Of a stretch of DNA of 64,000 nt, positions 49,504 through 64,000 are shown piece by piece (within the stretch, counting starts at the first letter, position 1; the number at the start of each line of letters is the position of its first letter). The stretch covers positions 310,001-374,000 of the forward strand of contig NZ_FTOH01000003.1 of NCBI RefSeq assembly GCF_900156675.1, given 5' to 3'. The position numbers and the translations under genes are program-made. The stretch comes from Thalassolituus maritimus. Its GTDB lineage: Bacteria; Pseudomonadota; Gammaproteobacteria; Pseudomonadales; Oceanobacteraceae. The notes beneath the pieces are model-generated. The model saw nothing but the letters and a program-made list of their open reading frames with translations, ran no database searches and was not told the origin of the DNA.

Positions 49504-50172
49504 ATGGCTAACCATATATTCATTCTTGCTACCGTAATGCTTCTTGCAGGGATCTTCGGCGGTCTGGTGAACTTTTACCTTTACGGCGATAAAGACCCGG
49601 ATTCGGCAAGTCTTCCACGATTTCTGGTTGTAGGTGTCGGCGCATCGTTTCTGGTACCGGTTGTTCTGGATATGGTGAACAGCGAGCTGGTTCTTGAAAG
49701 TCAGGGCGACCCCTCACAGCTACTCATTTTTACCGGTTTCTGTCTGGTTTCAGCGCTGCTGAGTCGCTTTGTTATCGACAACATGTCGGACCGGATTCTC
49801 AACGAGGCGAATGTTGCTCGTCAGCGTTCTGAAGAGGTCGAGCAGGATCTCCGTATTATTCAGAATGAGCTGCTGCCTCTGATTGATACTGAAACCGAAA
49901 AAGACATGAGCGGGTACGATCCGCAGATGGCGAATGTCTCAGAAGAGCTGGACACAACCTCTACCCAGATTCTCAAGATTCTGTCCAATGGTCGGTATAT
50001 CTTCCGCTCGCTGGCAGGGGTGTGCCGAGAATGCAATCAGGAAGAGTCGACAGTCCTGAAAACACTGCATGTGCTGACTACACGCAGCCTTGCAGGCAAG
50101 GTGAGTGGTAAAAATGGTGTGCGCTGGCACATCACAGAGAAAGGTCGTCGTGTTCTCGAAAATAGCCTCTGA
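49504..50172 (+). CDS. Three-helix membrane protein with C-terminal winged helix
   Basis: 222 residues. Three membrane helices (about 5-26, 40-60, 72-92), with AGIFGGLVNFYLYGD in the first loop, then a coiled coil (about 95-125), and a C-terminal winged-helix segment (about 150-222; QILKILSNGRYIFRSLAGV and VRWHITEKGRRVLE). The helix part resembles, from memory, proteins annotated as YEATS-associated. Membrane-bound transcription or ligand sensing is possible. The next gene begins after 60 bases and encodes a large vWA membrane protein, so they may work together. Confidence 0.7.
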   Translation: MANHIFILATVMLLAGIFGGLVNFYLYGDKDPDSASLPRFLVVGVGASFLVPVVLDMVNSELVLESQGDPSQLLIFTGFCLVSALLSRFVIDNMSDRILNEANVARQRSEEVEQDLRIIQNELLPLIDTETEKDMSGYDPQMANVSEELDTTSTQILKILSNGRYIFRSLAGVCRECNQEESTVLKTLHVLTTRSLAGKVSGKNGVRWHITEKGRRVLENSL

Positions 50173-50232
50173 TTCTGATTGAGCTTGAACTTGAAATTGA
50201 AGGTGACTGAGTTAAAGGGAGTCGGAGCTTTT

Positions 50233-52428
50233 ATGCTGCTTTTCCGAGCGATTTTTCTTGCGGTGTTCTTCACCGCTTTAACCCTCAGCGTCCGGGCTGA
50301 AGAAGCTCCGGCTCCAGACGTAAGAATCGTGATCGATATCTCCGGCAGCATGAAGGAGACAGATCCTGAAAACCTCCGACGCCCCGCACTTAACCTGCTG
50401 ACGGAATTATTACCTGAGGGAGCTCGTGCTGGTGTCTGGACCTTTGGGCGCTACGTGAATATGTTGGTGCCTCTGGGTGCTGTAGATGAAGCTTGGCGCC
50501 AGAAGGCACGTGCAGCCAGCGGTGATATCAGCTCTGTCGGTCTCAATACCAACCTCGTTGAAGCCCTCGATAAAGCCCTTTATGAGGCGACCCAGAACAG
50601 TCAGTTTGATCAGACAGTCATTCTCCTGACCGATGGTCGGATTGATATGGATACCTCCGGTGGTGCCCCTGACACGCCGGCGAATACCGCCGCTCGCGAA
50701 AGGCTTATCAGCGCTGTTCTTCCTGAGTACATGTCGAAGAATGTCCGTATTCACACTCTTGCCCTGTCCGATGCCGCAGACATTAATATGCTTGGGCAGC
50801 TTGCTATGGAAACAGACGGCCTCGCGCTAAAAGCGCATACCAATGACGAACTGATGCCAGCATTCCTGAAAGCATTTGATCGTGCCGTACCCAGTGAGCA
50901 GGTACCGCTTGTTGGAAATACCTTCAATATCGACCCAAGTGTTAACGAATTTACCGCGCTGATATTCAGGGCGGCTTCAAGCAAACCTACTGAGCTGGTA
51001 TCGCCTTCGGGCGTCCGTATCTCTCAGGACTCTGCTGCTACGTCGCCCGATGTTCGATGGCACCATGATCTGAATTTCGATCTGATTACCGTCAAGTCTC
51101 CAGAAAGCGGAGAGTGGACCGCCGACGCCGATGTTGCGCCTGACAGTCGCGTACAGATTTTGTCTGATCTCAAGCTCAAAGTGTCTGGTCTGCCGGGAAG
51201 CCTTTTTTCTGGTGTGCCGGTGCAGCTTGAAATGTCCTTGGAAAATGAGGGTGAGACAGTTGATGAAGAGACGATTCTGCAGCTGACGGATGTGAGCCTG
51301 CAGGTTACGGCACCAGATGGCCGCACAGGTAGTAAACTATTGTCTGACCCGGAAAGCCTGCCGGTCGATGGTATTTTCAGAGAAACTCTGAGCCGCCTTA
51401 ATCAACCGGGTGAGTACCGACTCGAGATACGGGCACAAGGGCGTACGTTTGAACGTAAACAGGTGCTTACGGCGACATTGGCAGAGCCGATGCGGGTCGA
51501 TGTTACTCCTGATGTCGGGCAGCAGATACTTAATGTACGTGTGTACCCTCAGAGTGACCTCGTAGATACTGCTCTGTCGCGTGTGATTTCCAGAATATCC
51601 AGCCCGGATGGAAGCTCTGTGATTAACGCGATGGAGTATTCAGAAGGCAGCGGCGCCTGGGAGCTCGCGCTTGTCGCCGACAAGGGCCCAGGCAGTTACG
51701 AGGTTATGCTTAACATCCGTGGAGTGTCGGCCAGCGGTAAGACATTTAAGAGTAAACCTGAAAGCATTCCTGTGATCTTTCCTTTGGTCTCTGAGGTAAG
51801 TACCCCAGTTACCGAATCGCCAGATCCGGAGCCGGTTAATGAAGAGGTCAGCGAACCTGATGTCAGGGTTGGGCAACCGGCTGTGGAGGACGCACCAGAG
51901 CCTACTGTGAGTGAAACTGCTGCAGCACAACCTGATTCGTCTGAAGAGGCACCTGCGGAACCTGAGGTCGTTCCTGTATCTGATGAAATTGTTCCTGATC
52001 TGGCGGCGAGATACAGTGAACAGTCTGTTGTCGAAGAAGTTGGGCCAGAAGAGGAGCTGGGTGTTGCCTGGTGGGTATACGTCCTACTTGGGGTGGCAAA
52101 TCTGGCACTTCTTGGTGGGCTGGCGTGGTGGTGGCTGGCGCGGCGCAAAGGAAAATCTGAGAGCGCGGAAGACGTAGCGGCACGTGAAGCGTTGGATCTG
52201 GAGACAGGGCAGCTTGATGACGCCGACCTGGATTCCGCTGACTTTGATAATTTTGACGGTGCGGAGGAGGAAGAAATTCCTGCAGCGGAGGAAGAAAGCA
52301 AGGTCACTGCCTCTATGGGAGGAGACACCGATATGGGGAGTCCTGAACCCGCAGCGGATGCAGCAGATTCAGCCGATGAAGACGATGACTGGGGGGAATT
52401 CGACCTCCCGGACGACAAAAAAGAATAG
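50233..52428 (+). CDS. Membrane-anchored von Willebrand A protein
   Basis: 731 residues from ATG 50233 (GGAG five bases upstream; an in-frame TTG at 50179 is less likely because it would mask the signal peptide). Signal peptide 1-22, vWA domain about 28-230 with intact MIDAS D35-I-S37-G-S39 and TDGR near 150, beta-sandwich domains to about 530, Pro/Glu linker, a membrane helix about 613-637, and an acidic cytoplasmic tail. The design resembles the TIGR03503 family of marine gammaproteobacteria. Metal-dependent protein binding in the periplasm is likely. Partner unknown. Confidence 0.8.
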   Translation: MLLFRAIFLAVFFTALTLSVRAEEAPAPDVRIVIDISGSMKETDPENLRRPALNLLTELLPEGARAGVWTFGRYVNMLVPLGAVDEAWRQKARAASGDISSVGLNTNLVEALDKALYEATQNSQFDQTVILLTDGRIDMDTSGGAPDTPANTAARERLISAVLPEYMSKNVRIHTLALSDAADINMLGQLAMETDGLALKAHTNDELMPAFLKAFDRAVPSEQVPLVGNTFNIDPSVNEFTALIFRAASSKPTELVSPSGVRISQDSAATSPDVRWHHDLNFDLITVKSPESGEWTADADVAPDSRVQILSDLKLKVSGLPGSLFSGVPVQLEMSLENEGETVDEETILQLTDVSLQVTAPDGRTGSKLLSDPESLPVDGIFRETLSRLNQPGEYRLEIRAQGRTFERKQVLTATLAEPMRVDVTPDVGQQILNVRVYPQSDLVDTALSRVISRISSPDGSSVINAMEYSEGSGAWELALVADKGPGSYEVMLNIRGVSASGKTFKSKPESIPVIFPLVSEVSTPVTESPDPEPVNEEVSEPDVRVGQPAVEDAPEPTVSETAAAQPDSSEEAPAEPEVVPVSDEIVPDLAARYSEQSVVEEVGPEEELGVAWWVYVLLGVANLALLGGLAWWWLARRKGKSESAEDVAAREALDLETGQLDDADLDSADFDNFDGAEEEEIPAAEEESKVTASMGGDTDMGSPEPAADAADSADEDDDWGEFDLPDDKKE

Positions 52429-52442
52429 CGCTTATATTATGA

Positions 52443-52471
52443 CCGCCTCCGGTACCGGAGGCGGCTTCTGT
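52443..52471 (+). terminator. Hairpin after the vWA gene
   Basis: Perfect palindrome CCGCCTCCGG-TA-CCGGAGGCGG (52443-52464), followed by CTTCTGT. Strong stem, poor T run; a probable terminator for the 49504-52428 pair. Confidence 0.65.
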
Positions 52472-52519
52472 ACAATTATCCCTTTCTGTCTGATTTTAAA
52501 GCCTTTTTCTGGTCCTGCC

Positions 52520-52548
52520 TTGCTGTACTAAAGCGGCCTCCTTATACT
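52520..52548 (+). promoter_or_regulatory. Promoter of the MoxR-CoxE pair
   Basis: TTGCTG (52520-52525) and TATACT (52543-52548) with exactly 17 bases between; predicted start near 52555, about 34 bases before the ATG. GAGG lies before the start codon. Confidence 0.65.
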
Positions 52549-52588
52549 CTGGCCAGTCAAGAATCAGAGATCGAGAGGTTAAGTCCTG

Positions 52589-53431
52589 ATGAAATTCCAG
52601 GGTACCGGTGAATACGTAGCGACACCTGAGCTGCAAATGGCAGTCAACGCAGCAATTACATTGCAGCGACCACTCCTGCTGAAAGGTGAGCCAGGAACCG
52701 GTAAAACAATGCTGGCAGAGCAACTGGCCACTTCATTAGGCACTGACCTTATCCAATGGCACATCAAGAGTACGACCAAGGCTCATCAGGGACTCTATGA
52801 GTACGATGCAGTCAGTCGTCTACGCGACTCGCAACTTGGTGTTGATGGTGTCAATGATATTTCGAACTACATCGTTAAAGGTAAGCTCTGGGAAGCTTTT
52901 GAAGCGGATAAGCCTGTTGTTCTGCTGATCGACGAGATTGATAAAGCGGATATCGAGTTCCCGAACGACCTTCTTCTCGAAATCGATAAGATGGAGTTCT
53001 TCGTGTATGAAACTCAGGAGCGCATCGTTGCTAAGCACCGCCCAATTATTCTGATTACCAGTAATAACGAGAAAGAATTGCCTGACGCATTCCTGCGCCG
53101 CTGCTTCTTCCACTATATCGACTTCCCAGATCGCGAAACCATGAAGGCGATCGTTGATGTGCATTTCCCGAATATTCAGGCGGAACTGGTCAATGACGCG
53201 CTTGAAGTCTTCTTTGACGTGCGCAAAGTACCGGGGCTGAAGAAAAAACCGTCAACTTCTGAACTGGTTGACTGGTTGAAGCTGCTGATGGCCGATGAAC
53301 TCGGCGTCGAGTTATTACGGAATCACGATACTACTAAGGCGATTCCGCCAATGGCGGGTGCTCTGGTGAAGAATGAGCAGGATGTGCACTTGCTGGAGCG
53401 TCTTGCGTTTATGAGTCGCCGTCGGGGCTGA
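52589..53431 (+). CDS. MoxR/CoxD-type AAA+ ATPase
   Basis: 280 residues. Walker A GEPGTGKT at 33-40, Walker B VVLLIDEIDKADIEFPNDLL near 113, sensor ITSNNEKELPDAFLRRCFFHYI. It belongs to the MoxR subgroup that pairs with CoxE vWA proteins. CoxD in Oligotropha helps mature CO dehydrogenase, but no such enzyme is present here. The vWA gene starts two bases after the stop, so the pair is one unit. It differs from the MoxR protein at 17518. Confidence 0.92.
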   Translation: MKFQGTGEYVATPELQMAVNAAITLQRPLLLKGEPGTGKTMLAEQLATSLGTDLIQWHIKSTTKAHQGLYEYDAVSRLRDSQLGVDGVNDISNYIVKGKLWEAFEADKPVVLLIDEIDKADIEFPNDLLLEIDKMEFFVYETQERIVAKHRPIILITSNNEKELPDAFLRRCFFHYIDFPDRETMKAIVDVHFPNIQAELVNDALEVFFDVRKVPGLKKKPSTSELVDWLKLLMADELGVELLRNHDTTKAIPPMAGALVKNEQDVHLLERLAFMSRRRG

Positions 53432-53433
53432 TC

Positions 53434-54615
53434 ATGCTGATCGACTTTTTCGATACGGTTCGTCGCGCAAAAGTACCATGCTCGATTCGCGAGTACCTTG
53501 ACCTCGTTGAAGCGGTTCAGGCGCGGGTAGCCTTTGCAGATCTTGAAGAGTTCTACGCGCTTGCGCGTTTGATCCTCGTAAAGGACGAAAAGCACTACGA
53601 TAAGTTCGATAAGGCCTTTGCCGCCTACTTTGAGGGTATTGAAGCACTGCCTTCATTGTTCGATGACGCCAGTATCCCTGCTGAATGGATGCGCAAAGAG
53701 ATGGAGAAGCTGCTCTCCGAAGAGGAAATGGCCAAGATTGAATCGCTGGGCGGTTTCGATGAGTTAATGAAAACGTTGCAGGAGCGTCTCGAAGAGCAGA
53801 AAAAACGTCATCAGGGTGGAAATAAAATGATCGGTACGGGCGGAACATCACCGTTTGGTGCTGAAGGTTACAACCCGGAAGGGGTTCGTATTGATCAGAA
53901 TCGTTCCCGTCATAAAAAAGCGGCGAAAGTATGGGAACAGAGAAACTACAAAAATCTTGATGACAACGTGCAGCTCGGTATACGGAACATCAAAGTAGCG
54001 TTGCGTCGTCTTCGTCGGTTTGCGCGCCAGGGCGCAGCCGATGAGCTTGATATGAATGACACCATCAGTTCTACCGCGCGCAACGCAGGTATGCTCGATA
54101 TTAAAATGGTTCCAGAACGGCACAACGCTGTGAAGGTACTGCTCTTTTTTGATGTCGGTGGGTCTATGGACCCTCACGTTCGTGTTTGTGAAGAGCTGTT
54201 CTCGGCCGCTCGTACCGAGTTCAAACATATGGAAACCTTTTACTTCCATAACTGCCTGTATGAGTCTGTCTGGAAAAATAATATCCGCCGTATGAACGAG
54301 CGCACAGAAACATGGGACATTTTGCGCAAGTATGGACAGGATTACCGCGTTATCTTTGTGGGCGATGCCATGATGGCGCCGTATGAAGTCACTCATGCGG
54401 GGGGAAGCGTCGAACACTGGAATGAAGAACCGGGTGCGGTCTGGATGGAACGCATGGCGAATCATTTCGATAAACTGGTCTGGTTGAACCCAGCGCCGGA
54501 AGACCATTGGGGGAATGGCGGTTCGCTAGGTGCGATCCGTACATTGGTCAAAGACAAAATGTATCCCATGACCCTGTCAGGTCTTGAGGACGCCATGAGA
54601 TTTCTCAGCAAATAG
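53434..54615 (+). CDS. CoxE-type vWA protein
   Basis: 393 residues, cytoplasmic. A helical N-terminal half, then a vWA domain (about 235-385) with the variant metal site FFDVGGSMD (D240-x-G-x-S), as usual for this family. The cofactor ATPase is encoded just before. Such pairs use ATP to insert metals or remodel a target protein. The gene order then passes to the envelope cluster after 78 bases with no clear terminator. Confidence 0.9.
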   Translation: MLIDFFDTVRRAKVPCSIREYLDLVEAVQARVAFADLEEFYALARLILVKDEKHYDKFDKAFAAYFEGIEALPSLFDDASIPAEWMRKEMEKLLSEEEMAKIESLGGFDELMKTLQERLEEQKKRHQGGNKMIGTGGTSPFGAEGYNPEGVRIDQNRSRHKKAAKVWEQRNYKNLDDNVQLGIRNIKVALRRLRRFARQGAADELDMNDTISSTARNAGMLDIKMVPERHNAVKVLLFFDVGGSMDPHVRVCEELFSAARTEFKHMETFYFHNCLYESVWKNNIRRMNERTETWDILRKYGQDYRVIFVGDAMMAPYEVTHAGGSVEHWNEEPGAVWMERMANHFDKLVWLNPAPEDHWGNGGSLGAIRTLVKDKMYPMTLSGLEDAMRFLSK

Positions 54616-54693
54616 CTGAAAATAGAAGTTGGAGGAGCTTGTCAGAGAGGGCAGGTTTCCCCGGAAAATAATAAAGAATGCAGGATGTTTTAC

Positions 54694-55404
54694 ATGCAGG
54701 CGATACGCTTGTTTTCACCACTGCTGACATTGCTGATTGCTACAGGAATCACTCTTGGGGGCGTTAAGCCGGTTGCTGCTGAGCAGGTCTACATAGGCCT
54801 GCGCAATGGGCCGTCTGAGGCATTTCCTGTCATCTACGAAGTCACTCCATACCGTCGCCTTGAAGTGGTCGCTCGTCGTGGTAGCTGGGTTAAGGCGTCT
54901 GATGGGCGAAACAGTGGCTGGCTGCATGTCGATGACCTTCATCTACTCGAAACCTTTCCCCGCGATGAACTCTGGAAGCTAGTCAATGACGCGCGCCCCG
55001 GGAAAAATCGACTCGAAGTGACCCTTTCAACCGCCAGCGCCTATTCCCTCGGATGGTTGTTTCCTGTCCTCGGAGAGTATGGCTCTGTGCGCTACACTCG
55101 CGCCCCAGAGGGAGATTCAGCGTGGTCAATGCTGGATGCTGGCGTCGTTACACAGTTCGCTGAGCCCGCAGACTACATAACTTTTAGTTGGAACGCGTTT
55201 GCCGGTTATGCTCAGAGTGAACTAGGCAATACTCATTGGTCCGATACTGCTGAGTCTGTCTGGGTCGGTGGCGTAGGTGTTGAATCAATGTGGCGGGTTG
55301 CCCGGTATTTTGATTTTGGTGCTCGCGGCGAAATAGGCGCCACATTAGACAGTGAAATGACAACCCACAGGTCAGTATCAATAGTTTGGAGATTACGTTT
55401 ATGA
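54694..55404 (+). CDS. Secreted SH3-like and beta-barrel-like protein
   Basis: 236 residues from ATG 54694 (AGGA upstream; ATG 54685 is the alternative). Signal peptide ends near KPVAAEQVY (about 30). Residues 30-90 look like a bacterial SH3 domain (VYIGLRNGPSEAFPVIYEV, RRGSWVKASDGRNSGWLHV). The second half has alternating beta-strand patterns and ends VSIVWRLRL, as in small outer-membrane barrels. It overlaps the next gene by four bases. First gene of the envelope cluster. Confidence 0.72.
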   Translation: MQAIRLFSPLLTLLIATGITLGGVKPVAAEQVYIGLRNGPSEAFPVIYEVTPYRRLEVVARRGSWVKASDGRNSGWLHVDDLHLLETFPRDELWKLVNDARPGKNRLEVTLSTASAYSLGWLFPVLGEYGSVRYTRAPEGDSAWSMLDAGVVTQFAEPADYITFSWNAFAGYAQSELGNTHWSDTAESVWVGGVGVESMWRVARYFDFGARGEIGATLDSEMTTHRSVSIVWRLRL

Positions 55405-56009
55405 CTTCTTTTTGGCGGACGGTGGGGTTCGCTGGTATGGCGTTTTGTTCGCTCAGTGCTGCGGCGGAGGTGTTCAGTCCGGGCAGTCAGAGGAACGGTC
55501 TTGATGATTTGAGTGAGACTGAAGTTGAACACGGTGTCTTCAGTGTGGGTTACACCAATACTCTGGCGTATAACAATGATTCGCAGCCGGGGATTCTTTT
55601 TACCGCGCGCTATTTTGCCGGTGAGAAATGGTATTTGTTGGGTGAAGCTCAGATTGGCCAGTTCAGCACACGCGCTGTGATTAATGACGGCCAGGAAGTG
55701 CGAAGTGAAGACGAAGAGCTGCTTCGTTACTCAGCAGGTGCGGGGTATGCGCTCCTTCAGGGGACTGCCAGTACCAGCGGAGTCCGTGCGGTGCCGTGGG
55801 TGCTCGCAGCGGAACTTAATGCAGGCGAACAACATTCCGGTGATACCAGTGGTCGTTATGCATCGCTTGGCCTGAACGTTCAGTTTCATGGCGAGCGGAT
55901 CTGGACGGGAATAGGTGTTCGTGAGTTTCTGGTCGACGATGAGCGCCTTCAGTCTCTCGAATCTGATGGGGGCACGCAGTGGGATATCTCACTCGGTTTG
56001 TATTACTGA
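55401..56009 (+). CDS. Putative outer-membrane beta-barrel protein
   Basis: 202 residues from ATG 55401, whose ATGA overlaps the previous stop; GGAG is nine bases upstream. Signal peptide ends near LSAAAEVFS. The mature part is rich in alternating strands (VFSVGYTNTLAYNND, YLLGEAQIGQFSTRAV) and ends WDISLGLYY, with a C-terminal aromatic as in outer-membrane proteins. Overlaps the redoxin gene by 31 bases. No family name known to me. Confidence 0.7.
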   Translation: MTSFWRTVGFAGMAFCSLSAAAEVFSPGSQRNGLDDLSETEVEHGVFSVGYTNTLAYNNDSQPGILFTARYFAGEKWYLLGEAQIGQFSTRAVINDGQEVRSEDEELLRYSAGAGYALLQGTASTSGVRAVPWVLAAELNAGEQHSGDTSGRYASLGLNVQFHGERIWTGIGVREFLVDDERLQSLESDGGTQWDISLGLYY

Positions 56010-56473
56010 TCGGTCTGGCTCTCCAGCTGCAGGCGTCTGAAAGTCTGAAACCGGGGGATATGGTTCCGGACTTTACTTTGCCGGCGACGAACGGCTTTGG
56101 TCAGCGACTTGAGGAAGCCCGCGGTTCTTATCTGATGTTGATATGGCTTGGGGACTGCGATGAATGTTCCGAGCGTCTCGTCAGATATCAGCTTCTCGCT
56201 GAGAGTCTGGAAATTGAAGGGCTAAAAGGTTGGTTTGTCTGGACCCCTAAGGGAAAGCGCCAGCCGCCAAATATGCGTATTCCAGTTCTGAAGTACGAGC
56301 CGAAATGGCGTCAGGGCTGGGTGTTTGATGAGCGGCCAGCGATAATGTTGATTAATGCCGACGGGCGCCTTGATCACCTGATTACGGGTGATCTTAATGA
56401 TAATTATCAGGAAACTGAGCGGGTGGTTATGCGCTGGATGAGCCAGGGTCGTGACTATCAGCAACCGGAGTAG
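55979..56473 (+). CDS. Periplasmic redoxin
   Basis: 164 residues from GTG 55979 (GGGGG six bases upstream), overlapping the barrel gene by 31 bases. Signal peptide about 1-20, then an AhpC/TlpA-like thioredoxin fold: LKPGDMVPDFTLPATNG, active site C60-D-E-C63 in WLGDCDECSER, and a C-terminal part ending RDYQQPE. It may keep disulphides in neighbouring envelope proteins in order, though those have few Cys. The next gene starts three bases after. Confidence 0.8.
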   Translation: MGYLTRFVLLIGLALQLQASESLKPGDMVPDFTLPATNGFGQRLEEARGSYLMLIWLGDCDECSERLVRYQLLAESLEIEGLKGWFVWTPKGKRQPPNMRIPVLKYEPKWRQGWVFDERPAIMLINADGRLDHLITGDLNDNYQETERVVMRWMSQGRDYQQPE

Positions 56474-56476
56474 ACA

Positions 56477-56974
56477 ATGAAATTTCTGTTAGTTCTGAGC
56501 ATGCTGTTTGCCTCTGCCGTCATGGCGGAGGACGCAGCGGTACGCGAACAGGTGATGACAGCAAAAGAGGCCGTACTTGAGCTTAATCGTGACCTCTACG
56601 AGCTGGAGCGGGAGCTTCTGAGCCCAGCCACGACTCGGGCGGCATTTCATGTGACTCTTAATCACGGTGAATATTTTGAACCTCTGTCAGTTGAACTCTC
56701 GGTAGATGGCAAGCTTGAACTCCAGCATCTGTATACTGAGCGTCAGGTAAAAGCCTTGCGTATGGGCGCGGTGCAGCCTCTGGGTGATCTCAACCTTGCA
56801 CCGGGCAAGCATCAAGTGTCTGTGACAATTCGCGGTGTCGACCATCAAGGTCAGGGGCGTGAACTTGCGATCACTGAAATGATCAGCAAAACCGGTAAAC
56901 CGCTTATTACAGAACTCCTGATCGTCGACCGTGATGACCTGCAGAGCGCACGGTTGCAGCTGAAGTACTGGTAA
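56477..56974 (+). CDS. Small periplasmic protein of the envelope cluster
   Basis: 165 residues. Signal peptide 1-17 (AVMAED). A short coiled coil follows (about 22-48, VLELNRDLYELERELL), then a beta-rich domain with FEPLSVELSVDGKLELQHLY and LNLAPGKHQVSVTIRG. I know no function. Tight spacing before and after supports a common operon. Confidence 0.75.
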   Translation: MKFLLVLSMLFASAVMAEDAAVREQVMTAKEAVLELNRDLYELERELLSPATTRAAFHVTLNHGEYFEPLSVELSVDGKLELQHLYTERQVKALRMGAVQPLGDLNLAPGKHQVSVTIRGVDHQGQGRELAITEMISKTGKPLITELLIVDRDDLQSARLQLKYW

Positions 56975-56978
56975 TTTG

Positions 56979-58946
56979 ATGCAGAAACTATTTCTTCTAC
57001 TTCTGTTGGCACCGCTGGCGCTGTTCAGTGTGAGCGTATACGCAGAGAGCGCAGCAGAAGATGATATCGATATTGACCTCGACGATATCGAAGGTATAGG
57101 CGTCAACGAAGACGCTGAAAAACGACTTCTGCGCGGTAATTTTTATTATTCGTACCTCGTCGGAGAGTATTACCAGACGCTTTACTATTTACGCGAATGG
57201 AAAGAGCTTATTGGTAGCAACACCACGCCAGAGGCAGAAGCTGAAGTCATGAGGGCTGCGGTCTATCTGTCGCTGGGGCTCGAGGATCAGGCGGAGGATC
57301 TCTTTTACGCTGTATTTGAACAGGGCGGAAGCGCATCTGGAGACGCCTGGTATTTCTTGACGCAACGCCTTTTCAGTGCAGGTTTCTACGGCCGCGCAGA
57401 GCAGGCTGCACGGAATGCACTGGCAGCATCGCCTGCTCTCAGTCGGCGTTATGACCAGGAGCTTTCTTATCTCTTGGCCAGTAGTATCAGTGAGCAGGAT
57501 CGGGTCGAAGAAGCCCTGATTGTAGTCAAGGGTATGGAAGACGCGAGCATCTGGACGGGGTATGCGCGCTACAACCTCATTCTGGCGATGGTTCGTCAGA
57601 ATTTCAGAAGTCGCGATATCGAAGCGACGATTGATGAAGCGATTTTCTACTTGCCAGACAACGAAGAAGGCACGGCTCTGCGTGATCGCATTCTGCTGAT
57701 TTCTGGTATTGCTGCGATGGAGCGGGATAAGCATGCAATGGCTAACCGCTATTTTTCAGACGTGACCCTGGAATCTGTATTTACTCCGCCCGCCTTATTG
57801 CATTACGGATGGAATCTTTTGGCTCAGTGGCGCTACGAAGATGCTATTCAGCCTTGGCGTATCCTGCAGCAGCTCTACGATGAATACCATCCTGCGGTTG
57901 TTGAATCCTACCTTGCAGTACCTCACACGCTTGAGTTGGTCGATGCTGTTAACCAGTCTGTGCTGGCGTATAAACGTGTTGAGGAGCGCCTGACTGATAT
58001 GGTCGGGGAACTGAAACAACTCAACCAGGAAGAGTCACTGGGTAATTGGCTTGATGAGTGGCGCCAGTCGAATGAAACTGAGAATTGGGGCTGGCAGAGA
58101 CAGGCGCTTGGTGATCTGCCACAAAGCCAGGTAACGCGTTTTGCTCAGGGATTACTGAAAGAAGAAGCGTTTACGCAAGAGTTGGCGCGGCTTCATGACC
58201 TTGATCGGATCCGTGCTGATCTCGCAGAAGCGATGCGTGAGTTGACCTTGTGGGAAGATATCCTCGTCCAGCGCCGGGAGAATCTCGAAGCGATGGGTGG
58301 TGAGGCCCTGCTGGAACAACTCGAAGAGCGTCAGATGGATGTTCTTCGAAGCATTCTTGCTGTTCAGGACAGACTCCTGGACGAAGATGAAACGGTTTTC
58401 TCTTACGCATCCAGAAGTGATGAAGCCCGCATCGAGCGTTTAAGAAGCGTCGTTCCTGCGGTTACTTTGCTCCAGAAAATAGGCACGCCGACCCGTGATC
58501 TTGCGCCATATAAAGAACGCTGGCGGCGGATGAGGGGGCTGCAGCTCTGGTCAATATATGAAGCGCAGCCTCAACGTAAGTGGGATACCGAGCGCGACCA
58601 TATGATATTGCGCTCTGAAACTGACAAATTATTCCGTCAATTAGAGAATACACGTACATCCCTGATTTGGGCTGATAGTTCATGGCGTGGATTTCCTGAA
58701 CGCGTCGGTCTATTGCAGCAGAGAGTTGCCGCGCTGGATTCAAATGTCGCAGAGATTCAGCGTGATCAGGAAGCACTTCTCACAGAAATGACAAAACAGC
58801 ACCTCACAGAGCTCGATGAACGCCTGACGCTTTATCTCGCACAGGCGCGCCTGGCGCTGGCTCGCCTCTACGACGATTCACTACAGAATGAATTTGGCTC
58901 GCTCGACTATGAGCCTGAAAATGAAAAACAGGAGGCGGTTAAGTAA
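56979..58946 (+). CDS. Large periplasmic helical-repeat protein
   Basis: 655 residues from ATG 56979 (weak ribosome site; coupling to the upstream gene likely). Signal peptide about 1-22. An acidic patch (DDIDIDLDDIEG) is followed by TPR-like helical pairs to about 330 and long coiled coils at about 390-460 and 550-630. No lipobox, so soluble in the periplasm or held by partners. The stop shares its last base with the next start (TAATG). Sequence outside the repeats is not familiar to me. Confidence 0.8.
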   Translation: MQKLFLLLLLAPLALFSVSVYAESAAEDDIDIDLDDIEGIGVNEDAEKRLLRGNFYYSYLVGEYYQTLYYLREWKELIGSNTTPEAEAEVMRAAVYLSLGLEDQAEDLFYAVFEQGGSASGDAWYFLTQRLFSAGFYGRAEQAARNALAASPALSRRYDQELSYLLASSISEQDRVEEALIVVKGMEDASIWTGYARYNLILAMVRQNFRSRDIEATIDEAIFYLPDNEEGTALRDRILLISGIAAMERDKHAMANRYFSDVTLESVFTPPALLHYGWNLLAQWRYEDAIQPWRILQQLYDEYHPAVVESYLAVPHTLELVDAVNQSVLAYKRVEERLTDMVGELKQLNQEESLGNWLDEWRQSNETENWGWQRQALGDLPQSQVTRFAQGLLKEEAFTQELARLHDLDRIRADLAEAMRELTLWEDILVQRRENLEAMGGEALLEQLEERQMDVLRSILAVQDRLLDEDETVFSYASRSDEARIERLRSVVPAVTLLQKIGTPTRDLAPYKERWRRMRGLQLWSIYEAQPQRKWDTERDHMILRSETDKLFRQLENTRTSLIWADSSWRGFPERVGLLQQRVAALDSNVAEIQRDQEALLTEMTKQHLTELDERLTLYLAQARLALARLYDDSLQNEFGSLDYEPENEKQEAVK

Positions 58947-61753
58947 TGTTGTTCCGTTTTCTGGTATTAGTAATGCTCGTAGTAGTCAGCTCTGGCTGTA
59001 GTTGGTTGGGTAAAAAAGACGAGCGTAAGTATATCTCAGACATTGGCACGCTTACCGTTCGCACAGCGTCCGATGAACCTCTGGGTGTAGATCATCGTGA
59101 TGTGATTCGCAGCTATAAATCCTATCTGGAAGTATCCACTGATCCTGAATTGCGCGTTCGTGTGGCGCACCGTATCGCCGGCCTGAAGCTCCAATGGGAC
59201 GAGACCCGAATGGATCAGCTTGGTGATGATATCGATGCCATGGTAGAAGAAGATCGGGAGATGGCCGAAGCCTCTATTGGCGATTATGAAGCCCTCCTTG
59301 AACTCTATCCTGATCGAATAGATAACGACACCATCTATTATCAATTGGCGAAGGCGTATTCGTTGGCTGGTCGACAGAATCAGGCCATCGCTGTGCTGGA
59401 AGAATTAACCGAGCGTTACCCCGAGTCTATTTACTATCTCGAAGCTCAGTTCCGGCTAGGGAGAATGCTATACAACGTCAACGACTTCGAAGCGTCGGAA
59501 AGTCGCTTTACTCAGGTTGTAGAGTTTGGCTTTAAAGGCAACCCGTACTACCTTGATGCGCAGTATTTCCGCGGCTGGGCATTGTTTAAGCAAAACCGGT
59601 TGGAAGATAGCTTGCTCTCCTTTACGGAGATGATTGATGAGCATTTCCCAGACGATGAAACGCTGATGGCTGCGGACGGTGCCGAACTGGAAGTATTGAA
59701 CGATACGCTGCGTATTATGGCATTAATGTTCGATTATCTCGGCGACTGGAACGAAATTGCTCGCTTCTATGATGAGCACGGTACCAGGTACTTCGAATAT
59801 CGGATTTACGCCGAACTGTCTAATCAGTATTACGAAAAGAAATACTACAAAAGCTCGGCATCAACCCTGCGGGCATTTGTTGATCGCTTCCCGGATGACG
59901 ATCGGGCTCCGCTCTATTATCGTCGTTTGATTTCAGGATATGAAAAAGCCGGATACCCGATGCTGCGCAGGAAGCACAAAGAGATCTTTATCGAACGTTT
60001 CGGTGTCGGATCCCCTTATTGGGAGACCCATGGTGAAGAAGTGCGCACTCTGATTACCGTTGCTTTGGGTGACTATATCTGGGATCTCGCCACATTTGCG
60101 CACGGCTGGGGTCAGCAAACAAAATCAGCGCGTGATAAGCGTGAACGACTGGAGCAGGCCGCCGGCTGGTATCGAGAGTATATCCGCTCATTCCCTAAAG
60201 CACCTGATGCGGTAAAAGCACACTTTTTACTGGCTGAAATTTCTTACGAGATTGGAAATTACGACGATGCACGCAACAACTATGAAATTGTTGCTTATCA
60301 ATATCCATTCTACGAGAACGCTGCTGAAGCGGGTTATGCGGCGTTGCTCGCATACAATAAATATAAGCCAACGCCCGAAGAAGAAGCGCGCTGGCGTCAG
60401 CTGACCGTTGCAAGTGCTAAGCGATTTGTTCTCGAATTTCCGCAGGATGAACGACGTGGAACCGTTTTAGTGAATACTGCTGAGATGCTTCTCGCGGATG
60501 AATATTATGGCCAGGCGTTGACTACGGCCCGGCTTGCACAGGAAAGCGGTGTTGAACTACCTCCGCGGTATTCTTACGGTGCGTCATTGGTGCAGGGGCA
60601 TTCAGCCTTTGAGCTAGGGAAGTTTGAAGAGGCTGAAACAGCGCTTCTTGCTGCCTCTGAGTATTCAGAGTTGAATCGTAAGCAGCGCGCTGATCTTCGC
60701 CAGAAGTCAGCGGCTGCAATTTATAAACAGGGCGAAGCTGCGCAGGAAGAAAATCCAGAAGAAGCGGTAGCGCAATGGTTGCGACTGGCTGAGGTTGTGC
60801 CTGAAAGTGATCTGCGTGAAAACGCAGAATACGATGCCGCGACCTTGCTGATGCAGACAGAAGATTTCGCTCGAGCTGAAGAAGTGCTTCTTGGATTCCG
60901 TGAAAATCATCCGAACAGTAAGTTCTCAAATGATATTCGCAGTAAATTAATTATTGCTTATGAGGGGCAGGGTGAGTGGCGCCAGGCAGCCTTTGAATTG
61001 AAAACCATCTCGGATTCTGGGACGGACGATGAAGAGAAACGAATCGCCGCTTTCCAGTCGGCGGAGTATTTCGAGAAGGCCGAGGATTACGATAACGCTA
61101 TCGTAATGTATCGACGCTATGCACATACGTACAAACGTCCTTTTGATCCCGCTATTGAAGCGCACTATAAGCTTGATCAGATATACGCAAAACTAGGTGA
61201 AGAAGAAAAACGCCGTTTCTGGTTAGACAAAATTATCAGTCTCCATTCTCGTGCTGGCGATGATAGAACAGATCGATCTCGTTATCTGGCCTCTAAGGCG
61301 GCCTTTGAGTTGGGTGAGTTTGATCGGCGCCGCTTCGATGATATAGAAATAACTCTGCCTCTGGCGAAAAGTATTGTGCGTAAGAACAACGCTATGCAAG
61401 GGGCGCTTAAACGTTATACCCAGGCCGTTGAGATGGAAGTTCTGGAGTTTACCACGCCTGCGACTTTCCATATTGGTGATATGTATGCCAAGTTCAGTCG
61501 CGGTTTGATGGAATCTGAACGCCCGGCTGGCATGGATGAACTCGAAGAAGAAGAATACACATTCCTGCTCGAGGATCAGGCATTTCCTCTGGAAGAAGCT
61601 GCGATTGATATTCATCAGACAAACATCAGCAGGACCTATGATGGTCTCTATGATGAATGGGTTAAAAAAAGTTTCCGGTCTATGGCTAGATTGATGCCGG
61701 GCCAATACGACAAACAAGAAAAAGCGGTGACCTATGTTGATCAGATTCGCTAG
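58946..61753 (+). CDS. Large TPR lipoprotein
   Basis: 935 residues. Lipoprotein signal with lipobox VSSGC (Cys18) followed by Ser-Trp, which favours the outer membrane. Many TPR or TPR-like repeats run from about 110 to 800 (for example IYYQLAKAYSLAGRQNQAIA, YYLDAQYFRGWALFKQNRL). It starts on the last base of the previous stop and overlaps the next gene by 20 bases. Proteins of this size and design, next to TolQ/TolR motors, include GltE-like parts of the Myxococcus gliding machine. Here I infer a scaffold under the outer membrane. Confidence 0.85.
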   Translation: MLFRFLVLVMLVVVSSGCSWLGKKDERKYISDIGTLTVRTASDEPLGVDHRDVIRSYKSYLEVSTDPELRVRVAHRIAGLKLQWDETRMDQLGDDIDAMVEEDREMAEASIGDYEALLELYPDRIDNDTIYYQLAKAYSLAGRQNQAIAVLEELTERYPESIYYLEAQFRLGRMLYNVNDFEASESRFTQVVEFGFKGNPYYLDAQYFRGWALFKQNRLEDSLLSFTEMIDEHFPDDETLMAADGAELEVLNDTLRIMALMFDYLGDWNEIARFYDEHGTRYFEYRIYAELSNQYYEKKYYKSSASTLRAFVDRFPDDDRAPLYYRRLISGYEKAGYPMLRRKHKEIFIERFGVGSPYWETHGEEVRTLITVALGDYIWDLATFAHGWGQQTKSARDKRERLEQAAGWYREYIRSFPKAPDAVKAHFLLAEISYEIGNYDDARNNYEIVAYQYPFYENAAEAGYAALLAYNKYKPTPEEEARWRQLTVASAKRFVLEFPQDERRGTVLVNTAEMLLADEYYGQALTTARLAQESGVELPPRYSYGASLVQGHSAFELGKFEEAETALLAASEYSELNRKQRADLRQKSAAAIYKQGEAAQEENPEEAVAQWLRLAEVVPESDLRENAEYDAATLLMQTEDFARAEEVLLGFRENHPNSKFSNDIRSKLIIAYEGQGEWRQAAFELKTISDSGTDDEEKRIAAFQSAEYFEKAEDYDNAIVMYRRYAHTYKRPFDPAIEAHYKLDQIYAKLGEEEKRRFWLDKIISLHSRAGDDRTDRSRYLASKAAFELGEFDRRRFDDIEITLPLAKSIVRKNNAMQGALKRYTQAVEMEVLEFTTPATFHIGDMYAKFSRGLMESERPAGMDELEEEEYTFLLEDQAFPLEEAAIDIHQTNISRTYDGLYDEWVKKSFRSMARLMPGQYDKQEKAVTYVDQIR

Positions 61754-62576
61754 TGCGTTACTGATTCTATTATTGAGTGCCTGTGCGTCGAATAAGCCTG
61801 CAATTCAGGATTCGGCCCAGCTTGGCCCTGATGGTCAGCCTGTTGCGGAACCTCTTCCGGAGGGATTTGAAAATGAATACCGTGATGGTTTGTCGCTTAT
61901 GGAGGACGAACGTTTTGACGAGGCACTAGAACACTGGGCAGATATGTCCGTTGTTTTTGGCCAGTATCCGGGAGTGTGGAGCAACCTGGGACTCGCGCAT
62001 TATCACCTAGGCAATTATGAAGAGGCCGCCACCGCTTACGAACAGGTTGAAACTATAGATCCGACTTTTTGCCCGGTTCATTCGTTGAGTGGTGTAGCTT
62101 ATCGTGAGCTGGGGCGTTTTGATGATGCTCAAGCGAGTTATTACGCTGCTATTGATTGTGATCCCGATGACGGGCGCCACTATTACAACCTTGGGATCCT
62201 TCTGGATCTGTATCGTAATGACCTTGAGAGCGCGCTTGAATTTTACCGTAAGGCGCGTCGATTGATGCCTGATAACGAGCAGTTAAATATCTGGGTGGTC
62301 GATCTCGCACGGAGAGCAGGTGTCGACGAGGCTGATCCAGCAAGTATTGATGAATGGTATAGCTCGTTAAAAACGCCAGCCGACGAAACTACGGATGGCG
62401 TAATACAAAGCCAGGTAACCGACATTAGTGCCCAGGAGGGTGTTGTCGATGAAGAAAACTCTCAGGAAGTAGTACCCGCTGATGAGGCGGTTATGCCTGA
62501 GCAGGTAGATGAGAACTCTGCGCCCGTTGATTCAACAACTACTGAACAGGGCGCGGCCGAAGGGGAGGCAATATGA
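61734..62576 (+). CDS. TPR lipoprotein
   Basis: 280 residues. Lipobox LLSAC (Cys17). Three to four canonical TPR units at about 45-185 (VWSNLGLAHYHLGNYEEAAT, YYNLGILLDLYRNDLESALE), then an acidic, Glu-rich, probably disordered tail of about 75 residues. It overlaps the previous gene by 20 bases and the next by four (ATGA). Likely outer-membrane attached adaptor of the same complex. Confidence 0.85.
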   Translation: MLIRFASALLILLLSACASNKPAIQDSAQLGPDGQPVAEPLPEGFENEYRDGLSLMEDERFDEALEHWADMSVVFGQYPGVWSNLGLAHYHLGNYEEAATAYEQVETIDPTFCPVHSLSGVAYRELGRFDDAQASYYAAIDCDPDDGRHYYNLGILLDLYRNDLESALEFYRKARRLMPDNEQLNIWVVDLARRAGVDEADPASIDEWYSSLKTPADETTDGVIQSQVTDISAQEGVVDEENSQEVVPADEAVMPEQVDENSAPVDSTTTEQGAAEGEAI

Positions 62577-62899
62577 GATACCTGATGACTTTGCTTATAC
62601 CTCTGCTTTTACCTTTGATGCTCATCAGTACAGAAGCATTGTCTGCTGATGATGATGTCGTTCGCCTGCAGGGAATGACGATTCGTGGGAATAGCGAAAA
62701 TCCCAATGTCCTCTATATTAATGCCTGGCAGCCGCCTCCGGGAACGGGGCGACTGTATGAGCCTGTTACCAGCTTCAATCGTCACTGGTTCCGACCATTG
62801 ACCCGTGACAGCCTGAAGCGAGAGATACGTTATGGGAAGCGTTATAACGAAAAAGAGGATCACGTCACAAGGCTAAACGAAGTCCTGGAAATAGAATGA
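62573..62899 (+). CDS. Small secreted protein of the envelope cluster
   Basis: 108 residues. Signal peptide ends near EALSADDD (about 25). The mature part of about 83 residues includes VVRLQGMTIRGNSENPNVLY and a Pro-rich WQPPPGTGRLYEP, then a basic end. Four-base overlap with the TPR lipoprotein gene. No family known to me; its fixed place before the motor genes suggests a structural part. Confidence 0.75.
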   Translation: MRYLMTLLIPLLLPLMLISTEALSADDDVVRLQGMTIRGNSENPNVLYINAWQPPPGTGRLYEPVTSFNRHWFRPLTRDSLKREIRYGKRYNEKEDHVTRLNEVLEIE

Positions 62900-63001
62900 A
62901 CTGCGGTTTTTTCTGCAGAGAAATAATGGTTAAATCAGCCCGTATGTAGCTTAATGAGCTGCCTATCAGAACAACAATAGTATCAGAACCGGAGATATCC
63001 A

Positions 63002-63658
63002 ATGGATTCCATCATTCGCTTCCTTCAGGAAGGTGGTGTATTTATGTACCCGATTGCAATCATCATGGTAATCGGTCTCGCTGTCGCAATTGAACGTTTG
63101 CTCGTCCTGGCGAAGGAAAAGTCGGGTAACCGCCGTGCCTTCGATGAAATGTACCCCATGCTGCAGAAGCGTGATCTGCGTTCAGCGCTCAACTACGCTA
63201 ACAGCTCTGATACTCATATCGCTAATATTTTTGCGTCCGGCATCCAGCGTATCCCGACTGCCCAACGTCGTGAAGAGGTTGAGTACGCGCTGGAAGAAGG
63301 CCTGATGGAAGCGATCCCTCAGCTGGAAAAACGCACGCCTTATATTGCGACCCTGGCTAATATCGCAACCCTTATGGGTCTGCTGGGTACTATTATGGGT
63401 CTTATCGCGGCATTCACCGCAGTCGCCAGTGCGCCGGCTGCTGAGAAAGCCGAACTTCTTTCGCAAAGTATTTCTGTCGCGATGAACACAACCGCATTTG
63501 GTCTGATTGCAGCCATCCCTCTGATTCTGCTGCATAGCTACCTGCAGACCAAAACATCTGAAATCGTCGACAGCATCGAGATGGCAGGCGTTAAGTTCCT
63601 AAATACCATCACGGATAAAAAGGCAGGACAAAACGGCACTCCTTCAAATAACGGTTAA
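63002..63658 (+). CDS. MotA/TolQ/ExbB-type proton channel protein
   Basis: 218 residues. Three membrane helices: about 14-34, and the conserved pair at about 115-145 and 160-185 (IATLMGLLGTIMGLIAAFTA, SVAMNTTAFGLIAAIP). The Thr and Gly pattern of the channel helices is intact. It forms pentamers around ExbD/TolR dimers in known systems and uses proton flow to do mechanical work. GGAG lies eight bases before the ATG. The ExbD-like gene starts 14 bases after the stop. Confidence 0.93.
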   Translation: MDSIIRFLQEGGVFMYPIAIIMVIGLAVAIERLLVLAKEKSGNRRAFDEMYPMLQKRDLRSALNYANSSDTHIANIFASGIQRIPTAQRREEVEYALEEGLMEAIPQLEKRTPYIATLANIATLMGLLGTIMGLIAAFTAVASAPAAEKAELLSQSISVAMNTTAFGLIAAIPLILLHSYLQTKTSEIVDSIEMAGVKFLNTITDKKAGQNGTPSNNG

Positions 63659-63672
63659 TCAGGAGTCGTTCG

Positions 63673-64000
63673 ATGAGACGCCATAAGAAAATCAGAGAAG
63701 AGGCGGAACTCAACGTAACATCCTTCATGAACCTGATGATCGTGCTGGTGCCAGTGCTGTTGATGAACATGGTTTTCTCGCAGCTGGCCGTACTGGATCT
63801 CAGGTTACCTTCTGGCGATGAGCCAGGCGCCGTTAACCCGGAGGATGTCACGCTTGAAGTGACGATCAGGAAGACAGGATTCACTCTCTCCCGGACTTAT
63901 CAGGAAGAGACAGTTGAACTGGCTTCTATTCCTGCTCAGTCTGGAGAACTTGACTACGAAGGCCTTTCAGAAGCCCTTCAGAAAGCCAAGAAAAATCCTG
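63673..64000 (+). CDS. ExbD/TolR-type protein, N-terminal part
   Basis: Partial gene running off the right edge; 109 codons are visible. AGGAG lies seven bases before the ATG. One membrane helix (about 17-38) in the family context LNVTSFMNLMIVLVPVLLMN, followed by the periplasmic part. Compared with ExbD (INVTPFIDVML), position N20 takes the place of the essential Asp25. Such proteins can occur next to a second ExbD that keeps the Asp, which would lie outside this window. Confidence 0.85.
   Translation, partial: MRRHKKIREEAELNVTSFMNLMIVLVPVLLMNMVFSQLAVLDLRLPSGDEPGAVNPEDVTLEVTIRKTGFTLSRTYQEETVELASIPAQSGELDYEGLSEALQKAKKNP

Follow-up and report, generated by a model that had tools for sequence, protein, structure and literature searches.

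The last part of a 64,000-nucleotide stretch of the Thalassolituus maritimus genome (hereafter the window; G000:C15:310001-374000 of a 3.86-Mb genome in 30 contigs) carries a cluster of twelve genes, SH3b, barB, redx, sec1, gltC, gltD, gltE, p108, aglR, aglQ, aglS and gltG in this order, which occupies 54685-64000 and a further 1.6 kb past the window end. Judged by its protein families, the cluster is a gammaproteobacterial Agl-Glt 'core complex', probably encoding a proton-driven, envelope-spanning relative of the gliding engine of Myxococcus. The interpretation favoured here, and considered fairly probable, is a gammaproteobacterial machine of the Agl-Glt class in which an asymmetric proton motor would drive an outer-membrane surface complex. 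It draws on gene content, conservation and linkage, on kinship with Agl, Glt and Nfs proteins and on a pattern of asparagine and aspartate in the two ExbD-type motor subunits.

The original prediction, made from the letters of the window, had placed ten or more tightly linked genes at 54694-64000 (54694 being an inner start codon of SH3b), and all ten are present, in order, on the plus strand. With the start codons used here five of their nine junctions overlap, not six (barrel/barrel, barrel/redoxin and, named by protein length, 655/935, 935/280 and 280/108), and two further gene overlaps lie past 64000 in the adjoining stretch L009 (G000:C15:370001-386000). A second ExbD-type gene and an AgmX/TonB-like gene, anticipated beyond 64000, were found there as aglS and gltG. 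Equally, the view of a trans-envelope proton-motor cluster resembling Agl-Glt and unlike Tol-Pal or TonB loci agrees with the profile kinship described below and with the presence of a separate TolQ-TolR-TolA-like locus. That prediction covered neither the exchange of aspartate for asparagine in AglQ nor the relationships of the barrels, nor the redox genes found with the operon in other families.

Kinship with the Myxococcus machinery and conservation of the cluster

The protein families were compared by profile with two Myxococcus genomes, M. xanthus AM003 and Myxococcus sp. CA023. With the GltD profile (A3), each of them yields four GltD-type loci (best 1.5e-76), besides weaker matches to tetratricopeptide repeat (TPR) proteins, and the order sec1 (5.9e-5), gltC (1.1e-8), gltD (3.5e-92) and gltE (4.7e-46) of the M. 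xanthus locus L113 is the same as in the window. Equally, the best M. xanthus match of the AglR profile (A5) is aglR itself (8.3e-50), followed by a paralogue (3.3e-43) before the values drop to 1.2e-20. M. xanthus L117 holds, one after the other, AglR (8e-51), AglQ (2.9e-20) and AglS (4.6e-29); of the two ExbD-type profiles, that of AglQ scores highest on M. xanthus aglQ and that of AglS on aglS. The AglR and AglQ of L117, with 245 and 162 amino acids (aa), have the lengths given in a table of Luciano 2011 (PMC3169522; this and the other papers are cited from the available part of their text). The GltE profile matches the open reading frame after gltD not only in L113 but also in L114 and L115, the GltG profile reaches 5.3e-21 on M. 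xanthus, and the GltC profile (A4, made without the loci that have gltC and gltD in one frame) matches the GltC-type frames of L115 (1.3e-11) and L113 weakly, with gltC standing directly upstream of gltD in the window and in both of these loci. M. xanthus L115, Nfs-like by its content, combines two barrels with gltC, gltD, gltE and gltG. Among solved structures, only TolQ/ExbD entries and TPR-type repeat proteins match the motor and GltC profiles at the thresholds used.

Because of these profile matches to M. xanthus Agl and Glt families, the cluster cannot be called undescribed, as had been proposed: a core complex aglRQS-gltC-D-E-G was reported in Gammaproteobacteria, with unknown function, in 2011 (PMC3169522) and has subsequently been proposed as a basal transport machinery (PMC3858216, published in 2013). 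The seven genes aglR, aglQ, aglS, gltC, gltD, gltE and gltG stand in one cluster there as here; what is added to the available account of that core is the regular presence of the barrel pair, redoxin, sec1 and p108, together with the asparagine of AglQ and the redox genes found in other families. One extra core gene without relatives in Myxococcales is also mentioned (PMC3169522), which may be p108 or sec1.

The suggested profile comparison with the Glt proteins was positive for GltD, GltE, GltG and, weakly, GltC; it did not reach significance for GltF, and no GltH-, GltI-, GltJ- or GltK-like gene was seen in the cluster (a genome-wide search was not made). GltG of the window lacks an FHA match, whereas the M. 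xanthus GltG frame has FHA-type matches and a score of 1094 bits for NF033760. The cluster holds no clear GltF candidate. The small protein p108 occupies the slot after gltE that gltF has in M. xanthus, and in the M. xanthus loci covered its profile gave no significant match, the redoxin profile none at all. Small secreted proteins precede gltG in L115 (4817-5107) and in L122 (6567-6836), that of L122 having the 89 aa published for GltF, and both have a GDLTKPDGEYI-like motif similar to the conserved part of p108. Identity of p108 with GltF is nevertheless not claimed, as 124 and 157 of 5000 shuffles score as well; in the reverse profile search one p108 appeared among ten weak matches.

Relatives of gltD occur in 63 of 274 genomes of a class sample and in 25 of 35 near relatives. 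For a closer comparison, 41 loci were assembled, namely the window's own and 40 gltD loci with up to 20 kb around each, hand-picked for spread from 85 class-sample rows and 32 near-relative rows; the profiles used for counting were built from the same 41 loci, so that the counts describe one family and are no independent test. In 35 of the 41 loci the nine genes sec1 to gltG are complete and share the strand of gltD, within about 8.5 kb, and the order is kept in 34, the called gltG frame of L104 beginning before aglS. The complete set is missing from L091, L093, L096 (contig end), L101, L106 and L107. Near the core, SH3b and barB are each present in 26 of the 41 loci and the redoxin in 25, with the CxxC motif in 18 of 19 aligned members of the redoxin family. 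Conservation of the cluster as a unit, which had been made a test of the prediction, exceeds chance. In two of the 35 complete loci, gltC and gltD form one open frame (L090:8699-13225, 1508 aa; L105:8780-13027, 1415 aa), a hint that GltC and GltD work together.

Motor subunits and outer-membrane barrels

Asparagine occupies the position of M. xanthus AglQ D28 (residue 28 by alignment) in the AglQ of all 37 gammaproteobacterial loci compared, and AglS has aspartate in all 37. Five other ExbD/TolR-type proteins of the window genome carry aspartate, judged by visual inspection of the loci around the top eight of 13 ExbB-type matches. In M. xanthus, the D28N exchange in AglQ paralyses motility and prevents sporulation (PMC3858216); since this change stops the M. 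xanthus machine, the gammaproteobacterial motor must solve the problem differently. With AglS alone keeping the proton-accepting aspartate, the motor would be asymmetric and have one proton site, and the loss of the aspartate from AglQ at every one of the 37 loci speaks against a functional homodimer of AglQ at these loci. According to a review of 5:2 motors, it is not known whether AglQ and AglS form hetero- or homodimers, both being predicted with the conserved aspartate, and an exchange of aspartate for asparagine in MotB mimics the protonated state (PMC9389320). The residues would suit either a pairing of AglQ with AglS that has a single functional site or a dimer of AglS alone, in which case AglQ would have some other role, and loci of this kind would represent a natural case of an asymmetric stator. 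The pattern of asparagine in AglQ and aspartate in AglS appears to be new. Like the link to redox genes, it is unreported in the literature covered (preprints, most subscription papers, supplements and figures lie outside this coverage), and Figure S1 of Luciano 2011, on gene order, may already show barrel or redox neighbours.

The asparagine is not a strictly gammaproteobacterial trait. Among 30 Myxococcota loci, the best matches of an asparagine-bearing profile in 58 genomes, AglQ has aspartate in 21 and asparagine in nine, which rules such a restriction out; in the joint set of 67 loci AglS has aspartate throughout and AglQ asparagine in 46. A tree computed with FastTree from AglR, AglQ and AglS, omitting the key column, unites the 37 gammaproteobacterial loci in one group (support 0.94), and the Myxococcota asparagine loci stand apart from it as a group of eight (support 0.43) and L158. 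Therefore the change may have happened more than once, tentatively so in view of midpoint rooting and weak supports. A further aglR/aglQ-like pair is located at L126:11579-12639, about 5 kb past apbE in genome G044.

The outer-membrane end of the machine is suggested by the barrel genes. In the barB family, 18 of 20 members match TIGR04565 (best 1e-50), and among the 20 members of the SH3b family (alignment A2) 16 match the SH3 model TIGR04211 and 11 the outer-membrane barrel TIGR04565. Both barrels beside gltC in M. xanthus L115 match TIGR04565 as well (2.3e-56 and 1.1e-19), and of 588 reading frames searched with the barB profile they rank highest, though with weak values (0.0013 and 0.0086); with the SH3b profile no frame of this search matched, and no solved structure matched barB at the thresholds used. 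A GltA or GltB candidate was not seen in L121, and the comparison rests on the L115 barrels instead. With TIGR04565 in gammaproteobacterial families and in L115, an outer-membrane barrel pair accompanies the core in both groups, and the SH3b and barB genes would belong with the Nfs-type barrels of Myxococcus, a relationship that looks new. The origin of GltA and GltB was placed in the ancestor of Myxococcales and Bdellovibrionales (PMC3169522). In M. xanthus, direct interactions link GltA, GltB and GltC, which are parts of the machine and depend on AglQ for their place in it (PMC4488436). The likeness to Agl-Nfs of M. xanthus, L115 being taken as Nfs by its content, thus lies in a TIGR04565 pair beside gltC-, gltD-, gltE- and gltG-type genes; on the other hand, Nfs borrows AglRQS from another locus, M. 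xanthus AglQ has aspartate and the GltG-type protein of L115 matches the long GltG model.

Redox genes beside related cores and the proposed machine

In other gammaproteobacterial families, the stretch before sec1 can hold genes for ApbE, a large lipoprotein, an optional protein of about 170-180 aa, SH3b, barB, redoxin, a small lipoprotein and DUF3570, not all of them being present at every locus. The small lipoprotein is DUF4266 in L134, the one tested, and the large lipoprotein has, in both examples read, a PD40 propeller match, a middle domain of HZS-alpha (hydrazine synthase alpha) and two CXXCH heme sites. Across the 274 genomes gltD and DUF3570 occur together in 53 (singly counted, gltD in 63 and DUF3570 in 71; Fisher 1e-30, uncorrected for genome kinship), and DUF3570 lies 2.2-5.4 kb upstream on the same strand at 21 of 83 gltD places, a number from which two fragment rows are excluded and in which both halves of one split gene (G186) are included. 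HZS-alpha is found in 38 of the 274 genomes, 37 of which also have gltD, and the 27 of 44 HZS-alpha places that share a contig with gltD are all within 25 kb of it. Ten extended loci were chosen for a nearby DUF3570 or hzsA gene, so that the presence of hzsA in 10 of 10 is no frequency; in some genomes (L128-L130) the redox genes lie about 13-16 kb off and are divergent. These operon partners, ApbE, HZS-alpha-like lipoprotein, redoxin, DUF4266 and DUF3570, look new. Clusters of ApbE, DUF3570, DUF4266 and thioredoxin-like genes have been described (PMC8238504, eLife 2021), and the same gene types, with the HZS-alpha-like lipoprotein, stand here directly before the Glt core of other gammaproteobacterial families; in contrast, the operon of the window retains only the redoxin, and the available main text of that paper is without the terms 'ExbB' and 'TPR'. 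In L123, a locus from the same taxonomic order as the window, a CoxE-type VWA gene is followed by ApbE, lipoprotein and SH3b genes, a layout from which the form seen in the window may have lost its redox genes.

Several further observations touch on these gene types. The window genome has two DUF3570 genes unlinked to glt genes, in L131 (G000:C13:232001-248000) and L132 (G000:C8:92001-108000), that adjoin ApbE-type genes and genes for small proteins of 72-74 aa; L131 also has a DUF1501 gene and a cytochrome c/DUF1553/DUF1588 gene. A second type of glt-core locus in the window's family (L073, L075, L078, L081, L085 and L086) has divergent barrels and a fibro-slime-domain gene, with a large propeller lipoprotein in five of the six, which bears long DPT repeats in L073, L081 and L085. 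Large proteins with laminin-G-like domains, some with CXXCH, recur beside other loci: next to propeller-lipoprotein or glt loci, L134:9077-14284 and L100:1390-4047 between them encode a DUF1585 protein with CXXCH, large proteins of this laminin-G-like kind, with two CXXCH in L134 and a weak MtrC/MtrF-like match in L100, and a protein that we take to be of twin-arginine type.

The steps of the proposed mechanism, from formation of a complex and asymmetry in vivo to the path of force and the cargo, we infer from work on Myxococcus and from the protein families. AglR, AglQ and AglS would constitute an ExbBD/TolQR-like proton motor in the inner membrane, in which protons would pass via AglR and AglS, AglQ would most likely be a neutral partner beside AglS and a single proton site would power the cycle. 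The motor might drive GltG, a single-pass, proline-rich protein, which would transmit force across the periplasm and pass its TonB-like tip through the wall to the TPR lipoproteins and the barrel pair, while GltC, GltD, GltE, sec1 and p108 would provide a scaffold of periplasmic proteins and lipoproteins. The SH3b-barB pair would be the outer-membrane end, like GltB/GltA and NfsB/NfsA of Myxococcus, with the SH3 domain perhaps gripping the wall. The output would probably be the moving, loading or presenting of a surface-protein complex, not gliding. The role of the Agl-Glt core outside myxobacteria was left open in 2011, and the operon partners now name concrete cargo candidates; the best of these, in the other gammaproteobacterial families, might be the di-heme HZS-alpha-like lipoprotein and the DUF3570 protein of the same operon, which is a guess from gene order and not directly applicable to the operon of the window.

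A number of findings weigh against this account. The kinship of GltC and sec1 to M. xanthus is weak, and the GltE match is possibly inflated by TPRs, the profile also matching a 4132-aa frame of GltI size at 2.1e-25. The barrel proteins of the window are divergent members of their families, barB scoring 16.8 bits against a cut-off of 60 and SH3b having no NCBIfam match. Asparagine in AglQ extends to the nine Myxococcota loci, and the residues would agree equally well with a homodimer of AglS that leaves AglQ outside the channel. DUF3570 is absent from the close upstream region on the same strand at 62 of the 83 gltD places. The operon of the window is without DUF3570, ApbE, HZS-alpha and also DUF4266 genes and its genome is without a PF18582 match, so that machines of this kind cannot all carry a redox cargo. 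For one DUF3570 protein, with two [S/T]GA[S/T] motifs, modification by ApbE has been demonstrated (PMC8238504); this motif is found, in one copy each, in three of ten DUF3570 proteins of glt loci and is lacking in the other seven, which makes flavinylation at these loci doubtful and weakens a flavinylated DUF3570 as a firm part of the reading. Single-sequence AlphaFold models of two window proteins were too poor to use (predicted local distance difference test scores of 43.8 and 38.9).

A narrower proposal holds that a rotary motor with one proton site (asparagine in AglQ, aspartate in AglS) moves, loads or gates an outer-membrane redox complex of the di-heme HZS-alpha-like propeller lipoprotein, DUF3570 and the barrel pair, as a surface electron-transfer or metalloenzyme machine that is stripped in the genus of the window. 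It is unlikely on the present evidence, the missing flavin motifs having lowered its standing somewhat and that of the general proposal of an asymmetric motor slightly. A polysaccharide-handling machine, which would move a secreted surface polymer round the cell as Agl-Nfs does in myxospores, deserves a little more credit, although it too is rather unlikely. The barrel pair and GltC are related to genes of the Nfs-like L115, Agl-Nfs moves a spore-coat polymer (PMC3858216) and the paralogous loci in the window's family have a fibro-slime-domain gene (TIGR02148, 2.5e-29). Yet among representatives of the 14 neighbour groups that recur in at least three loci, at least three of the groups being without a Pfam match, no Pfam family of polysaccharide export or synthesis or of wall synthesis was found (the window genome was not searched for polysaccharide loci), so that wall shaping and polymer export, both entertained in the original prediction, receive no support from the neighbours.

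As an import or outer-membrane stability system of the TonB or Tol kind, the cluster would be explained by its ExbB-, ExbD- and TonB-type parts; this is improbable, since it contains no Pal, TolB or TonB-dependent receptor, aglR scores 69.6 bits against a tolQ cut-off of 221 and 48 against an exbB cut-off of 206.2, and the TolQ-TolR-TolA-like locus is situated elsewhere in the genome (L001). A gliding engine in this genus is more improbable still. With the gliding machine of M. xanthus the cluster shares the AglRQS motor, kinship of AglR, AglS, GltD, GltE and GltG as well as of GltC, and an outer-membrane barrel pair; it differs in that no gltH-, gltI-, gltJ- or gltK-like gene was seen in the cluster (gliding genes elsewhere in the genome were not looked for), in a GltG without the FHA domain of its M. 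xanthus counterpart and in an AglQ with the very residue that paralyses the Myxococcus motor.

Gene features and neighbourhood

Table 1. Genes of the Agl-Glt-type cluster, with positions in the window unless L009 is given
Gene	Position	Strand	Description	Match or occurrence
SH3b	54685-55404	+	Signal peptide, bacterial SH3 domain, barrel-like C-terminal region	SH3_3 1.4e-5, slightly below Pfam cut-off
barB	55401-56009	+	Putative outer-membrane beta-barrel, OMP_myx_plus family	TIGR04565 E 0.0051, below cut-off
redx	55979-56473	+	Secreted TlpA/ResA-like redoxin, CxxC = CDEC	AhpC-TSA 2.8e-4, below Pfam cut-off
sec1	56477-56974	+	Secreted protein, start of conserved core	39/41 loci
gltC	56979-58946	+	Periplasmic helical-repeat protein, 655 aa	40/41 loci
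gltD	58946-61753	+	TPR lipoprotein, 935 aa, lipobox SSGC	Profile A3
gltE	61734-62576	+	TPR lipoprotein, lipobox LSAC	NF033758 GltE 9.1e-9, 34.8 bits (cut-off 225)
p108	62573-62899	+	Small secreted core protein, 108 aa	41/41 gammaproteobacterial loci
aglR	63002-63658	+	ExbB/TolQ/MotA-type motor subunit	PF01618 8.5e-29
aglQ	63673-64000, on to L009:4182	+	ExbD/TolR-type subunit, Asn20 at the position of the proton-accepting Asp	PF02472
aglS	L009:4179-4673		Second ExbD-type subunit, Asp kept; beyond the window
gltG	L009:4670-5638		TonB-like, AgmX/PglI C-terminal domain; beyond the window	NF033768 56 bits (cut-off 40)

Directly upstream of the cluster, 50179-54615 encodes a VWA protein that has a membrane helix at its C terminus (TIGR03503-like, 126 bits against a cut-off of 305.6), together with a MoxR/MadB-type ATPase and a second VWA protein, of CoxE type. 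This set is present in several genera of the window's family and, in part (a CoxE-type VWA gene), in L123 of the same taxonomic order, and for this reason it was not counted as a part of the machine. A protein with a YLATT three-helix membrane domain (PF20303, 1e-39) is encoded at 49504-50172. An acyl-CoA ligase-like gene comes next after gltG, and further downstream, at L009:11389-13482, a small protein with repeated GKCGEGKCG units is followed by a DUF692-type enzyme-like gene and its partner, a set that presumably resembles a cluster for a metal-binding peptide (bufferin).

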